In this document: in pieces, positions 12,387 to 18,252 of the stretch | How the letters are laid out: each line of letters begins with the position of its first letter | Position numbering within the stretch: position 1 is the stretch's first letter | From: Myxococcales bacterium | GTDB lineage: Bacteria; Myxococcota_A; Polyangia; Polyangiales; Polyangiaceae | DNA length: 39,544 nt | Assembly (NCBI GenBank): GCA_947473045.1 | Contig: CANJCO010000048.1 | Location: 1-39,544 of the forward strand | Direction of reading: 5' to 3' | Made by a program: the position numbers and the translations under genes | The notes under the pieces: model-generated | The model's database searches: none | Seen by the model: only the letters and a program-made list of their open reading frames with translations | Told to the model about the DNA's origin: nothing

Positions 12387-13064
12387 TCAGGCCGCTTGCG
12401 TCCGCGAACGCTCGGCGCTGTCGGTCATCGCGCGGCGCAGCAAGGTCACTGCGCGGGCGTGAAGCTGCGAGACCCGGGGCTCGCTCACGCCCAGCTCTTC
12501 GGCGATGACCTTGAACTGCTCACCCTTGTAATAATGCATCCGAACGATCATTCGCTCGCGCTCGGGCAGCGACTCCACGGCGAGGTCGAGCTGCCGGCGC
12601 TCGGAGCGCTCGATGCTGGCCTCAAGCGGGTTCGGGGTCGAGTTGTCGATGAGCTGGCTCATCGACGGAGGGAGATCGTCGAAACCGACGACGGTGCTCC
12701 GCTCGGACGCCATCTGCGCGCCGCCCTTCGCCGCGGCGGTGACGCGCGAGCGGGCGCGGCGGGTCAGCCAATCCTGGGTGCGAAGCTCGTCGAGGATGGC
12801 GCCGCGAATGCGGATGCGCGCGTACCACTCGAACGTCGGGCTCCGGTCGTGGCCATTCTTACGAAGCGAGTCGATCAGTCCGTACGTGCCGGCGGCCACG
12901 AGATCGTCGCGAAGAACATTGGGCGGCAGCTTGCCGATGAAGCGCGCGACCACCTGCTGCACCAGAGGTAGATACGTCGTCACCTCGGCTGCCGTGGGCA
13001 CAGCGCAAAACACGCCTGATTCAGGCGACGAGGTCTCGGAGGCAGCAGCGGCGGTCGGCATCAT
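12387..13064 (-). CDS. FliA/WhiG-type alternative sigma factor (sigma-28 family)
   Basis: The protein is a sigma-70 family factor with the FliA arrangement. Region 2 is recognisable by LPLVQQVVARFIGKLP, DLVAAGTYGLIDSLRK, FEWYARIRIRGAILDELR and the diagnostic DWLTRRARSR. Region 4 is the helix-turn-helix LPERERMIVRMHYY...KVIAEELGVSEPRVSQLHARA. A short region 3 lies between. Starting at ATG 13064 gives 225 residues; a GTG at 13106 would add 14. FliA proteins direct flagellar or, in relatives without flagella, secretion or developmental genes; no flagellar operon is present here. An upstream box at 13173-13198 resembles a sigma-28 promoter and could allow self-regulation. Confidence 0.92.
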   Translation of the reverse strand: MMPTAAAASETSSPESGVFCAVPTAAEVTTYLPLVQQVVARFIGKLPPNVLRDDLVAAGTYGLIDSLRKNGHDRSPTFEWYARIRIRGAILDELRTQDWLTRRARSRVTAAAKGGAQMASERSTVVGFDDLPPSMSQLIDNSTPNPLEASIERSERRQLDLAVESLPERERMIVRMHYYKGEQFKVIAEELGVSEPRVSQLHARAVTLLRRAMTDSAERSRTQAA

Positions 13065-13106
13065 GCAGACCCCGTTTGCGGCTATCGTGCCAACCGTAAT
13101 AGTCAC

Positions 13107-13282: not shown

Positions 13283-14245
13283 TTACTTAGAAATGGCCGG
13301 GGTCAAATCGGACCCCTGCGGAGCCACGGGCGCGGCTGGCGGCGACGGCGACGGGGGGGCGACGACCGGCGCTTCGGGGGCCGGCGGCTGCGGGGGCTCG
13401 CTGGCCGGCGCCGACAAATGCGTCTCGTCGCCGACGTCGCTCGTGCCCTCGTCGGCATCGCTCGCCGGGGCGCTGTAACGCGGGGGCTCGCCGGGCTTCG
13501 AGAAGTCGACCCAGTAGGCCGAGCTCGCGCGGGTATCCATGTGCACAAACACGCTGTTGGGATAGTAGCCGCAGCCCGTGTTGCGCAGGGTTCGGCAGAA
13601 GTCGCGCACGACCTCGTTGGGCACGCCGCTCACGCGAAAGTCGACCGCGTGGCCGATGTTGTGGTTCGAGTGCGCAGTGTACTGCGTCGGCGAATAGGGC
13701 CGAAATCCGCTGACGACCTCGATCGTGCGGCTGCCAAAGTGGTTGCTCACGACCCCGAGCAGCGACATCAGGCGAGCGTCGATCGGGTGCGTGAGGCCGT
13801 TGGGATACCGGAGCATGCGCTCGATCCCCTGAATCGTCGGGGGGGGCAGGCGCCCGCGACGATCGCTGACGCGCAGGTTCGCCTCTTCGTTCGTGGCGAG
13901 CCGGCGCAAGTGCACGATCCCCGGCGTCCTGGGGCGGGCGGCGTAGACGACGGGCGCTGCGCCGTGACTGGTCGCAGGCCCGTGCGCGGCCCCGCCGTGG
14001 GCCACGTGAGGAGCAGGCGGCGGCGCGGGATTGACGCCGGGGATCACGAGCGTCTGGCCCACGCGAAGGTGCTTCACGTCTTTGAGGTGGTTGGCGTCGA
14101 CGATCGCCTTCAGCGCGACATGGTAGCGATGCGCGATGGCCTCGAGCGTGTGGCCGCGCGCGACTGTGTGCGAGATGTCTGCGCGCGCTGCGGCAGGAAG
14201 CAGCAACGCGAGGGCAAAAATAGAGACGGGAGCCGCGACCTTCAC
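13283..14245 (-). CDS. Secreted LysM plus M15/DUF882 murein peptidase
   Basis: The product (320 residues from GTG 14245) has a signal peptide (MKVAAPVSIFALALLLPAAARA). A LysM peptidoglycan-binding domain follows (HTVARGHTLEAIAHRYHV...LRVGQTLVIPG, ~30-72). The YcbK-like M15 zinc peptidase domain comes next: VVSGFRPYSPTQY, then HNIGHAVDF with the metal His and Asp, and VHMDT with the last His. The last ~70 residues are a Pro/Ala-rich tail, perhaps a wall spacer. It is predicted to cut peptide cross-links or trim peptidoglycan in the periplasm. GTG 14260 is an alternative start (five residues longer). The frame is open further back, but that part is antisense to the papain-like gene. It is divergent from that gene, with the two starts about 80 bases apart. 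Confidence 0.88.
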   Translation of the reverse strand: MKVAAPVSIFALALLLPAAARADISHTVARGHTLEAIAHRYHVALKAIVDANHLKDVKHLRVGQTLVIPGVNPAPPPAPHVAHGGAAHGPATSHGAAPVVYAARPRTPGIVHLRRLATNEEANLRVSDRRGRLPPPTIQGIERMLRYPNGLTHPIDARLMSLLGVVSNHFGSRTIEVVSGFRPYSPTQYTAHSNHNIGHAVDFRVSGVPNEVVRDFCRTLRNTGCGYYPNSVFVHMDTRASSAYWVDFSKPGEPPRYSAPASDADEGTSDVGDETHLSAPASEPPQPPAPEAPVVAPPSPSPPAAPVAPQGSDLTPAISK

Positions 14246-14327
14246 ATCCGCCGCATACACCCGCTGGGGCCCGGCGGAAACGGCTGCTGTTGACGCAGGT
14301 GCAGCTGCAGCGCCATGATCGGGGTCT

Positions 14328-15791
14328 ATGCGCAGGATCGTGCTGGTGGCTGCGTGCGCGCTGATGGCGATCGCGTGCAAACGAAAAGCGCTCGACGCCG
14401 ACGCCGGCCCGGCGCTTTCGGCCTCGGTCGACCTCGGTCCCGCCCTCGCTCCGCCGCCGCTGCGCGCCGCAACGCCGCCTGTCCCGCCCTTGCCCGCGCT
14501 GCCGAAGCTCGCAGGGCACGCTGCTGCCACGGCGCCGCCCGCATCGGCGCCGATCGCGGGCGATCCCGGCAACTGTCGGCGCGTTTGGACCGGCTCCGGA
14601 GTCGCGCCGCTCGTCTGCACGGGCAGCTCGTTGAACAGCGGCAGTCAGGCCGCGGGCGCCAGGGCCCTCATCGCCTATTCGCAGCTGTCGAGCGCGCTCG
14701 CGAGTCTGCCGGCCGTCGTCGATCACCGCGTCGAGAACGTCGAAGGTCCCGTGCGCAACCAAACGACGGTGCCAGCGTGCACGGCGTTCGCGATCGCCGC
14801 GGCGGTCGATCACTCCATCGCGCGCTGGACGGGGACGCCTGCGCAGGTGTCAGTGATGCAGATCTGGTCGCGCTATCACGAACCCGAGGAGCACGACTCA
14901 ATCCTCATGAACCTCGGCCACGACCTCGGCGCCGAAGAGCGTTGGCCGTTTGCCGTGATCGAAGCCACGAGCTGGCTGCCATGCACGCCGGGGCAGAAGC
15001 CGGGCAAGGCAGGCTGCGGCAACCCCGTCGACGCCGCGCACCTCGCGAAGGTCACGGGCGATCCGATCGCGTCGTTTCGGCAGATCGAGCGCGTCGATCC
15101 GACCAACGTCCTCGCCATGAAGCTGAAGCTCGCGGCGGGCCAGGACATCGTCGTCGCGATGACCGTGCCCGACACCTTCACTGCGGTCGGAAAAGCCGGC
15201 GCGAAGTACGTTCCCAACTACGCGAACGCGCCGAAAGACTCGGGCCACGCCATGCTGCTGGCGGGCTACGCGAGCTTTTCGCACGGCACGTATTTTCTGG
15301 TGCACAACAGCTGGGGCAAGGAGTGGGGCGACGGCGGCTACGCCTGGCTGCATGAGGCCACCGTCGCGAAGTGGACGAAAGACGCCGCGATCATCGGGGC
15401 CGAACCCAGGAGCGGCGCCTCTGCAGTGCGCGCGCAGCGAGGCCGCGGCCAAACCACGTGCGACGCCGGCCTCGTGCCCGACAGCATCCGGGGCACGTGC
15501 GCGCCGCCCTGCGCCGACGGCAGCCCAAGACATGCGGGGGTCTGTGCCGTCGCCGGGCAATGTCCCGCGTCGTACGTAAACCTCACCGGGTCGTGCGTGC
15601 TGGCCGCGCCCACGAGCACCGGCGTCGATCCCGCCACCGGCATTCGCTACGCCTGCGGGCCGGGCGGCTGCGCCTACACGCTGCCGCGCACGGTCGACGC
15701 GGCATGCACGGGCAATTCGTGCATGGCCTCGTGTCCCGCGCCCGACTACCGCGTGGCGAAGGCGGGCGGCGAGGTCACGTGCGTGGAGTGA
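14328..15791 (+). CDS. Papain-family (C1A) cysteine peptidase lipoprotein
   Basis: The 487-residue product starts with a lipoprotein signal (MRRIVLVAACALMAIAC, Cys17 being the lipidated residue). An Ala/Pro-rich linker runs to ~75. The C1A peptidase domain shows all four catalytic positions: Gln145 and Cys151 in VRNQTTVPACTAFA, His307 in SGHAMLLAGY and Asn327 in VHNSWGKEWGDGGYAWL. The usual CGSCWAF around the nucleophile is replaced by PACTAFA, so the neighbouring disulfide cysteine is missing. There is no recognisable inhibitory propeptide. The last ~120 residues form a separate cysteine-rich domain (12 or more Cys) resembling myxobacterial secreted repeats. Substrate unknown; likely an outer-membrane or surface protease. 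It ends one base from the convergent gene at 15793. Confidence 0.88.
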   Translation: MRRIVLVAACALMAIACKRKALDADAGPALSASVDLGPALAPPPLRAATPPVPPLPALPKLAGHAAATAPPASAPIAGDPGNCRRVWTGSGVAPLVCTGSSLNSGSQAAGARALIAYSQLSSALASLPAVVDHRVENVEGPVRNQTTVPACTAFAIAAAVDHSIARWTGTPAQVSVMQIWSRYHEPEEHDSILMNLGHDLGAEERWPFAVIEATSWLPCTPGQKPGKAGCGNPVDAAHLAKVTGDPIASFRQIERVDPTNVLAMKLKLAAGQDIVVAMTVPDTFTAVGKAGAKYVPNYANAPKDSGHAMLLAGYASFSHGTYFLVHNSWGKEWGDGGYAWLHEATVAKWTKDAAIIGAEPRSGASAVRAQRGRGQTTCDAGLVPDSIRGTCAPPCADGSPRHAGVCAVAGQCPASYVNLTGSCVLAAPTSTGVDPATGIRYACGPGGCAYTLPRTVDAACTGNSCMASCPAPDYRVAKAGGEVTCVE

Positions 15792-15792
15792 C

Positions 15793-16884
15793 TCAGCCCT
15801 TTTGGGTGCTCGCGATGAGCTCGAACTCGCGCTCGTAACTCGAGAGCTGCTCGGTCACGATATCGAGATTCTTCTGGTTCTGATCGCTGCTCTCGGCCCG
15901 GCCAAGATCGAGCATCTGGCGGCGGATCTCGCCGAGCTGATCGCAGAGCTTCGACAGGCGAACGAGGTCGCGCGTTTTGCGGTCTTTGCCAGCAAAATGC
16001 TCGCCATATTCGGCGAACACCTCGTTGGCCGCGCCGCCCAGCAGGCCCATGAGATCGGCCAGCGAAGTGGTCTTGCGCGCCTTGCGAACCTCCGCCAGCT
16101 CGGCCTTGAACATGGCGATTTGGCGCTCGACGATGCCGATGTTGTTGGTGTTGTTTCCGTCGTCGAGACCGGCGTCCTTCAGCACGCGCATTTCGTCCTG
16201 AACGGCTTCGAGCTCCTCGATCATCCGCGAAAGCAGCGCCGGCCGGCGGGTCGAGCGCGACTTGCCGGCAAAGTGGTCCTGATACGCCTTGAACTGACCG
16301 TTGGCGCGCTGGGCAAGGCCGCTGCCGCGTTCGTCGAGCGAGCCCGCGACGTGGGCCTCCTCGATGGCGCGAAGCTCGGTCGTGTACATCGCCGAAGTCG
16401 AGCGGACCAAAGAGCGATCCTCGCCGAACAGCGGGCTCTTCACCTTCGCGATGACGTCGTCCATCGCGACGCCGATCGCCTCGAGATCGGCGATGAGCTC
16501 GCGGAGCAGACTGCCGTCCCGCGTCGCCCGCGATTGTCCCGCGAAGTGGCGGTGATAGCGGGCGAAGGCGAGGTTGGCGCCGGTGGCGAGCGGCGCGAAG
16601 CTGTCGACCTCCGGGGGCGCGTTCTTCGCCTGCACGATGAGCTGGCGCTCTTTTTTGTAGAGCGTGACGTTGTCGGACGCGGTGGCGAGGAGCTCGGCCA
16701 GGCCGGCGGGCGCGGCGGCCGCTGGAATGGTCTTGATGCGCAGGACCATGCTCTCGGTGTCGCGGATCAGCGCGTCAAGCTCGTCGAGGTTGCGCGTTGC
16801 ACGAGCGTGGCCCGCAAACTGCGCCTCGTAGCGGGCGGCGATGCGGTCGAGCTCCTGGGCGAATGCTGCTGCGGGTGTGGCCAT
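15793..16884 (-). CDS. Four-repeat helical protein (YxxHFAGxxRxTR repeats), unknown family
   Basis: I do not recognise a described family. The 363-residue protein has no signal peptide or membrane segment and is predicted mostly helical. It consists of four units of ~91 residues, each opening with FxxYxxHFAGxxRxTR: YEAQFAGHARATR at 19, YHRHFAGQSRATR at 110, YQDHFAGKSRSTR at 201 and YGEHFAGKDRKTR at 293. Each signature is followed by a helix (LLxxLIxxLExI), an acidic or glycine-containing turn, and a second helix (YxxExxxIxxA). Spacing is 91, 91 and 92 residues; the last unit is shorter. It follows the DUF6600 lipoprotein by 21 bases on the same strand, so the two are probably co-transcribed. 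TAACAT lies 10 bases before the ATG as a possible own promoter. Confidence 0.85.
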   Translation of the reverse strand: MATPAAAFAQELDRIAARYEAQFAGHARATRNLDELDALIRDTESMVLRIKTIPAAAAPAGLAELLATASDNVTLYKKERQLIVQAKNAPPEVDSFAPLATGANLAFARYHRHFAGQSRATRDGSLLRELIADLEAIGVAMDDVIAKVKSPLFGEDRSLVRSTSAMYTTELRAIEEAHVAGSLDERGSGLAQRANGQFKAYQDHFAGKSRSTRRPALLSRMIEELEAVQDEMRVLKDAGLDDGNNTNNIGIVERQIAMFKAELAEVRKARKTTSLADLMGLLGGAANEVFAEYGEHFAGKDRKTRDLVRLSKLCDQLGEIRRQMLDLGRAESSDQNQKNLDIVTEQLSSYEREFELIASTQKG

Positions 16885-16894
16885 GAGGGCGATG

Positions 16895-16900
16895 ATGTTA
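16895..16900 (-). promoter_or_regulatory. Weak candidate -10 (TAACAT) 10 nt before the HFAG-repeat gene
   Basis: TAACAT on the minus strand lies between the end of the DUF6600 gene and the ATG at 16884, 10 bases from the start codon. It may give the repeat-protein gene its own transcript in addition to read-through. Confidence 0.25.
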
Positions 16901-16905
16901 GCACG

Positions 16906-18252
16906 TCATCGACGGCGGGTGGCTGGAGCTGGCGGCCTCGGCGCGGTTGCCGTGGGCGCCACCGCGGGGGGCGGTCGCGGAACGCTCGGCGGCGTGGGGA
17001 TCGACGGCGCAGCAGGCTGCGGCGCGGGCGGCGGAGCGACATGCGGCGACGGCGCATACGACGGATTCTGCCGCGGAGGCGCGGGCGGCGGAGCGACATG
17101 CGGCGACGGAGCGACATGCGGCGACGGCGCATACGACGGATTCTGCGGCGGAGCGTACTGCGGAGGCGGCCCGTACGACGGATTCTGCCCCGGAGACACC
17201 TGCGGCGGCATGTACGGCGACGACGGCGCTCGCGACGGATTCTGCCCCGGAGACGCCTGCGGCGGCGCGTACTGCGGCGGCGGCCCGTTCGAGGGCCGCG
17301 TTGCAGAAGGCGGCCGATAGGCGGGGCCCGCGCTCGGCGAAGGGGCATTTGCGGGGTTCGAAGGCCCGATGACGCGGGGGCGCGGCCTCGCGTTTTGCTG
17401 GGCGCGCGACAGCCCTGGATCGCTGTCGGGCGGCTTCGGCAGTGTGGCCGGCGCAAACCCGAACTGGGAAGGATGAGGACCGACGGTCGGCGCCGCGGGC
17501 GTCCGCGCAGGACCTCCCACTGTGGGCGCTGCCTCCCGCCACGGCACGGTGCGCCCGGCGACGACCTGCACTTGCCCGCCGGTCACGACGTGAACGCCAA
17601 CCGATGGCTCAAAAACATGATGCGAAGGAACATACGTATACCTCACGGCAGGCTCGCGCCCGAGGCCGTACGCCGCTCCGCCGCGCCAGATCCAGCCCGG
17701 CGGTGCCGGCCCCCATCCGACGTAGCCGTAGCCGGGCTCTCCCGTGCGCCAGACCACCCAGGCGCCCCTGTACGTGCGACCCGGGATCCAGCACCAGCCC
17801 CGGTTTGCAATATACACCCATCTCCCATAATGAAACGGCGCCCAGCCCCACGGATAGTCGCTCACCCAAACGTAGTCGCTGTCGTACGTCCAGTGCCCGC
17901 CGCTGACGTACGGTGAGAAATCAGCCCCGACCACGTGAGCGTGAGGCTGCCACACGACGCCGTACGAGCCGTCGTCGACCCAGTCGCCGTAGGGCGCGAG
18001 CGGTTCACGAAACTCCGTGAGGGCCGAGGGATCGGTGTCGATATATTCGGCAGGCTCCGCTTCGGCGCCGACCTGCACTTCGCCCGATGCGTACATGCCG
18101 TCATCGTCCGTTTGCCCAGGCTCGGGCTGCGGTGCCGGGTCCTGCGCGTAGACGGGCCCGGGCGTCGCGTAGCGAGGCGGCGGGGCGTCGTCGAAGTCGC
18201 AGGCCACAGCAGCGCAGGCGATGAGCGCGACAGTGCGGGGATGGATGACCAT
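16906..18252 (-). CDS. DUF6600-type lipoprotein with long proline-rich tail
   Basis: The 448-residue product has a lipoprotein signal (MVIHPRTVALIACAAVAC, lipidation at Cys18) and an acidic linker. The domain at ~80-230 carries the aromatic signature of DUF6600 proteins: LAPYGDWVDDGSYGVVWQP, YVSGGHWTY, YPWGWAPFHYGRWVY, GWCWIPG, AWVVWR and GYVGWGPAPPGW. These Trp/Gly repeats form a beta-rich fold of unknown function in the envelope. From ~250 to the end it is Pro/Ala/Gln/Ser-rich, with imperfect QNPSYAPSPHVAPP repeats. Its ATG at 18252 has TACATT 6 bases upstream and no ribosome site. The HFAG-repeat gene follows after 21 bases. Confidence 0.88.
   Translation of the reverse strand: MVIHPRTVALIACAAVACDFDDAPPPRYATPGPVYAQDPAPQPEPGQTDDDGMYASGEVQVGAEAEPAEYIDTDPSALTEFREPLAPYGDWVDDGSYGVVWQPHAHVVGADFSPYVSGGHWTYDSDYVWVSDYPWGWAPFHYGRWVYIANRGWCWIPGRTYRGAWVVWRTGEPGYGYVGWGPAPPGWIWRGGAAYGLGREPAVRYTYVPSHHVFEPSVGVHVVTGGQVQVVAGRTVPWREAAPTVGGPARTPAAPTVGPHPSQFGFAPATLPKPPDSDPGLSRAQQNARPRPRVIGPSNPANAPSPSAGPAYRPPSATRPSNGPPPQYAPPQASPGQNPSRAPSSPYMPPQVSPGQNPSYGPPPQYAPPQNPSYAPSPHVAPSPHVAPPPAPPRQNPSYAPSPHVAPPPAPQPAAPSIPTPPSVPRPPPAVAPTATAPRPPAPATRRR
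17030..17290 (-). repeat. Irregular repeats encoding the QNPSYAPSPHVAPP tail
   Basis: The plus-strand decamer ACGGATTCTG (encoding QNPS in the opposite strand) recurs at 17061, 17136 and 17178, and as part of a diverged copy at 17235, spacings 75, 42 and 57 bases. A longer block around it (GCGACATGCGGCGACGGCGC) is repeated nearly exactly at ~17037 and ~17112. Spacing changes are all multiples of three, so the frame is kept while tail length can vary. Confidence 0.75.

Follow-up and report, generated by a model that had tools for sequence, protein, structure and literature searches.

An apparently undescribed family of four-unit, three-helix repeat proteins in Myxococcota

Introduction

Spectrin repeats occur in tandem as antiparallel three-helix bundles, each about 90-110 residues long and with a conserved Trp in helix A. 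Munc13 MUN and CATCHR proteins are elongated rods of helical bundles, the BAG domain is a single three-helix bundle that binds the ATPase domain of Hsp70, and the synthetic designs DHR64 and DHF38 have a regular helical repeat geometry. Repeats of the TPR, Sel1 and HEAT type are built from two-helix units of 34-40 residues.

Here we describe a repeat protein encoded in the window, by which we mean the whole 39,544-nucleotide stretch of Myxococcales DNA that was analyzed. The protein is predicted to consist of tandem three-helix units that resemble the antiparallel bundles of spectrin, and its family is a variant of this broad kind, but its unit is 91 residues long, a break of 3-5 residues separates helix C from the next helix A, and the family is bacterial and carries a different signature (FAGxxRxTR plus a Glu). 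There is no Trp in the window protein or among the conserved positions of the family, and no significant match of the window protein to the spectrin profile was found. Profiles of TPR, Sel1, HEAT and other two-helix Pfam repeats likewise gave no match, and their short units contrast with the 91-residue three-helix unit seen here.

The initial annotation had taken the repeat to be absent from the named families, and this held for Pfam and NCBIfam. The window protein matched nothing in Pfam up to E 0.1 and had no credible match in Pfam, NCBIfam, PADLOC or PDB sequences; no enzyme family emerged from the Pfam, NCBIfam and PDB-sequence searches. Weak Pfam matches (Dad4, DUF2408 and ANC1_spectrin, the last matched by 6 of 62 family members with a best value of 2.2e-6) and PDB profile matches (designed coiled coils, Dad4, and 3kdw at E 0.0012) were read as coiled-coil or helical noise, and those to PRK14562 (NCBIfam) and Cas8a (PADLOC) were far below cut-offs or confined to single members. 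A literature search returned no paper describing a FAGxxRxTR repeat, and the four-unit family is apparently undescribed.

Results and Discussion

The repeat gene and its four units

The gene and its parts are as follows.

15793..16884, minus strand: repeat gene, 363 amino acids, four tandem three-helix units
16606..16884, minus strand: unit 1, residues 1-93, helices 4-23, 33-51 and 62-87
16333..16605, minus strand: unit 2, residues 94-184, helices 93-114, 124-148 and 151-178
16057..16332, minus strand: unit 3, residues 185-276, helices 183-205, 215-237 and 243-271
15796..16056, minus strand: unit 4, residues 277-363, helices 275-296, 307-330 and 334-362
16792..16830, minus strand: signature of unit 1, YEAQFAGHARATR, residues 19-31, at the end of helix A and in the A-B loop of the model
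16519..16557, minus strand: signature of unit 2, YHRHFAGQSRATR, residues 110-122
16246..16284, minus strand: signature of unit 3, YQDHFAGKSRSTR, residues 201-213
15970..16008, minus strand: signature of unit 4, YGEHFAGKDRKTR, residues 293-305

The encoded protein has a pI of 5.8, a mass of 39.8 kDa and no evident signal peptide over its 363 residues. An antisense ORF (15802-17916, plus strand, 704 amino acids) overlaps the gene and is longer than the gene's own ORF; the minus-strand frame is nevertheless supported, because more than 100 genomes hold homologues of it. The four motifs of the form YxxHFAGxxRxTR quoted in the initial annotation, which named no strand, and their start residues 19, 110, 201 and 293 are exact in the minus-strand translation.

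The proposed repeat of about 91 residues is supported. In local alignment, every pair of units aligned with z values of 6.0-16.9 against 1000 shuffles each. A unit profile made from 48 units of 12 family members from 12 species had exactly four matches in the whole 5.15 Mb genome, all of them within the repeat gene (E 2.9e-30 to 2.0e-23). The four units are mutually homologous.

Predicted structure

AlphaFold2 modeling of the whole protein with 62 sequences gave twelve helices, three per unit and in register, with a pLDDT of 91.8 and a pTM of 0.76. Unit 3 folded alone, with 66 other units as its alignment, gave a similar picture (pLDDT 92.8, pTM 0.81; helices 2-21, 31-53 and 60-91). The four-unit helical array that had been expected from the sequence is therefore predicted with high confidence. 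Two helices were indeed seen after each motif, as had been proposed, and the models refine this to three helices per unit. In both the whole and the single-unit models the signature maps to the end of helix A and the A-B loop.

Structural comparison placed these models among many helical proteins. Foldseek against the PDB had no match at E 0.001 or better for either the whole or the single-unit model, and the best natural match of the whole model was to the Munc13 MUN and CATCHR rods (E 9e-3, prob 0.82), with an unrelated sequence and a TM-score of 0.19, so that there is no global fit. The designed repeats DHR64 and DHF38 resemble the model in geometry, but are evolutionarily unrelated to it. 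With a structural aligner, one unit produced many ties at Z 9-11.5, for example with CorA, BAG domains and designed bundles; the tool itself warns that tied scores may mean just a common helix arrangement. The BAG domain of plant AtBAG4 (PDB 4hwh) aligned at Z 11.5 with an rmsd of 1.9 over 80 residues, a score also reached by designed and unrelated bundles, but with 4% identity and no sequence match, and BAG is one domain where the repeat protein has four. A spectrin repeat of utrophin aligned at Z 8.9 and rmsd 2.4 over 92 residues, a level that many unrelated bundles reach.

Among the tied matches of one unit are also alanyl-tRNA synthetase, through its C-Ala domain, and ribosome recycling factor. 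Together with the Arg-rich loops, this brings up the idea of a helical protein associated with nucleic acid or the ribosome. We regard that idea as quite unlikely: dozens of unrelated three-helix bundles score as well as these two, the median pI of the family is 5.9, and a conserved translation neighbor was not found.

Conserved positions and a possible latch

We next consider the conserved positions. Over 408 units from 102 proteins, R26 and E77 were each present in 99%, Y17 in 96%, F21 in 94%, A22 in 90% and G23 in 89%, and Y17, R26 and E77 occur in every unit of the window protein. The initial annotation was right to place a conserved motif on a turn, but its list omitted E77 in helix C, which is among the most conserved residues together with R26. 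R29 was found in 99-100% of units 1-3 and in 59% of unit 4, which is the sole unit without a successor. Units also carry faces of their own, such as RRPxLLxRM in unit 3 and CDxLGExxRQM in unit 4. By a height estimate from helix lengths alone, at 1.5 A per residue, the level of E77 would roughly match that of residue 19 in helix A, immediately below the A-B loop, and about 14 residues of helix C would extend beyond it.

These positions can be accommodated in a model in which four three-helix bundles, placed end to end, make up a soluble rod or adaptor in the cytoplasm, with a structural latch at each pole, a view to which we would give about even chances. In each unit, the FAGxxRxTR loop would cap the pole between helices A and B. 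A salt bridge from R26 in the loop to E77 in helix C, with Y17 nearby, may hold this loop as a latch. Helix C would pass that pole towards the next unit, and because it does so, R29 and T28 may help to lock neighboring units. The resulting rigid rod of four bundles with unit-specific faces would most likely hold partner proteins together. The homology of the units, the confident three-helix models, the near-invariance of R26, E77 and Y17, the estimated height of E77, the relaxation of R29 solely in unit 4, the nearly constant number and order of units across homologues and the lack of an enzyme match speak for the rod and latch.

The same residues could also be read as a ligand site, the second option named in the initial annotation. 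Each unit would then bind one and the same small anion, such as a metabolite that contains phosphate, via R26, R29 and Y17, and the protein would be a four-site binder or sensor. The polar character and near-invariance of R26, R29, Y17 and E77 in the units of 102 proteins are consistent with this, and near-invariant Arg and Glu in each unit could equally bind a ligand, which counts against the latch. However, a near-invariant Glu amid the Arg residues favors pairing inside the protein over an anion pocket, conservation of R29 drops in unit 4, and no known binding family matches. We therefore consider the four-site binder unlikely, and a structural latch or inter-unit joint fits the signature as well as a ligand site, or better.

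Architecture across homologues

Four units in fixed order were found in 102 of 104 complete homologues, and in 102 of the 103 that are longer than 330 residues. The exception among the latter, L082, is a divergent paralogue whose first unit scores under the threshold. Unit spacing across homologues is mostly 91, 91 and 92 residues. One intact homologue of 275 amino acids (L071:5995-6822, plus strand), located just downstream of a DUF2141-like gene on the same strand, has three units and starts directly at unit 2; it seems to have lost unit 1. The remaining short homologues end at contig ends or are fragments. No gain of units since the radiation was seen among the complete homologues, and unlike repeat proteins with drifting copy number, this family nearly always has four units.

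The identity of each unit is also conserved. In 407 of 408 cases the nearest unit in another protein bore the same unit number, and in the unit tree units 1, 3 and 4 each formed one clade, as did unit 2 for 100 of 102 proteins. Since the units cluster by number across species, the duplications predate the Myxococcota radiation, and the order of the units has been fixed since before it.

Distribution and inheritance

A profile search found homologues in 120 of 377 Myxococcota genomes, and the repeat gene is carried by 14 of 59 relatives. An alignment scan of genome contigs from 84,980 species returned 67 loci, whereas a single-sequence scan of genome contigs gave no match. Searches of plasmids, phages and viral contigs found no homologue, and viral proteins showed no significant fold match. 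The record titles of the matches read Myxococcota, Deltaproteobacteria, Bradymonadales or vague terms ("proteobacterium", "bacterium"). Seven oddly or vaguely titled matches agree in contig number, and exactly or almost exactly in coordinates, with those in genomes placed in Myxococcota (G402 with G085, G406 with G097, G405 with G288, G404 with G332, G403 with G286, G401 with G216 and G400 with G186). The family is so far restricted to Myxococcota at the sensitivity of the pattern-based scan, which can miss distant relatives.

Within the phylum, the gene was present in 12 of 12 good genomes of one family (f28, which includes Lujinxingia vulgaris) and in 15 of 15 of another (f26), and is core in both. 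In the window's own family it was found in 17 of 59 good genomes, a patchy presence that goes by genus. The gene tree required 15 changes of family label, with a minimum of 13 and a shuffled mean of 38.5. As the tree thus tracks the taxonomic families, inheritance looks mainly vertical, with losses.

Gene neighborhood

The gene directly upstream encodes a DUF6600 domain.

16906..18252, minus strand: DUF6600-domain gene, PF20245, E=1.4e-26

The initial annotation had linked the two genes as a probable operon. The gap of 21 bases on the same strand is real, and L017, which is the genus's other genome, has the same order, but together these are just 2 of 107 loci and come from a single genus, and outside the window DUF6600 was found in 1 of 49 same-strand upstream neighbors. 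The operon was thus rejected as a functional link outside the genus. An envelope-linked accessory protein that works with the DUF6600 lipoprotein would account for the arrangement in this genus; such a role is very improbable given these counts and the lack of an evident signal sequence in the repeat protein, and the neighborhoods already refute it as a general function. In the literature searched, no paper names DUF6600. The C-terminal tail of the DUF6600 protein is long and rich in proline and contains short repeats (NPSYAPSPHVAPPPAP), and a second DUF6600 gene is located elsewhere in the window genome (G000:C14:53015-53323).

On the other side, a papain-family cysteine protease gene (14328-15791, plus strand; PF00112, E 1e-13) is convergent with the repeat gene, and one base separates their ends. 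A gene of the same cluster (c45) lies downstream on the other strand in both the window and L017. Further along the window, a sigma-70 family factor gene adjoins a LysM and M15/DUF882 peptidase gene (12387-13106 and 13283-14620, both minus strand).

Over the 107 loci we found no constant gene partner within several kb. The commonest neighbors are lineage-bound, namely DUF2334 downstream (10/48), an acyltransferase upstream (5/49), an M23 peptidase (5/48) and GlnE (4/48), and the upstream neighbor shared the strand of the repeat gene in 62 of 107 loci, which is close to chance. Because neighbors change with lineage and none is constant, context does not reveal function; that no partner is visible from the neighborhood speaks against the rod or adaptor.

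A possible role in Myxococcota

Myxococcota are known for predation and multicellularity. The repeat family has a clear signature, and its architecture, which is almost fixed, is older than the radiation of the phylum. It may be that the protein is a core, phylum-specific cytoplasmic scaffold, in which four non-interchangeable three-helix domains that share a near-invariant Tyr/Arg/Glu site organize cell biology peculiar to the phylum; we offer this tentatively and consider it doubtful. That none of the 27 good genomes in two families lacks the gene suggests that it is probably important there, and with a cultured member available (Lujinxingia vulgaris), structure and knock-out work may be feasible. 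The repeat family alone answers no long-standing question.

Divergent and partial copies

In f26, most genomes that have the gene hold between two and four copies of it, and the extra ones are divergent. In the paralogues L172, L173, L176, L177, L178, L181 and L182, FAGxxRxTR has decayed in some units; the unit matches of the extra copies remain, and most retain the four-unit length. Because divergent paralogues lose parts of the motif and keep their unit matches, the proposed latch may be dispensable for folding in places.

Two further arrangements were observed. In the window's family, L169:4235-6202 (minus strand) encodes 656 amino acids, with divergent repeat units ahead of some 290 C-terminal residues that have no Pfam match; this is a possible fusion and could hint at function. 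Finally, L016/L078, from the same genome as L015/L076, nearly duplicates the gene's N-terminal half, which is fused at a contig end to an N-terminal region of unrelated sequence, and represents a recent partial duplication or an assembly effect.
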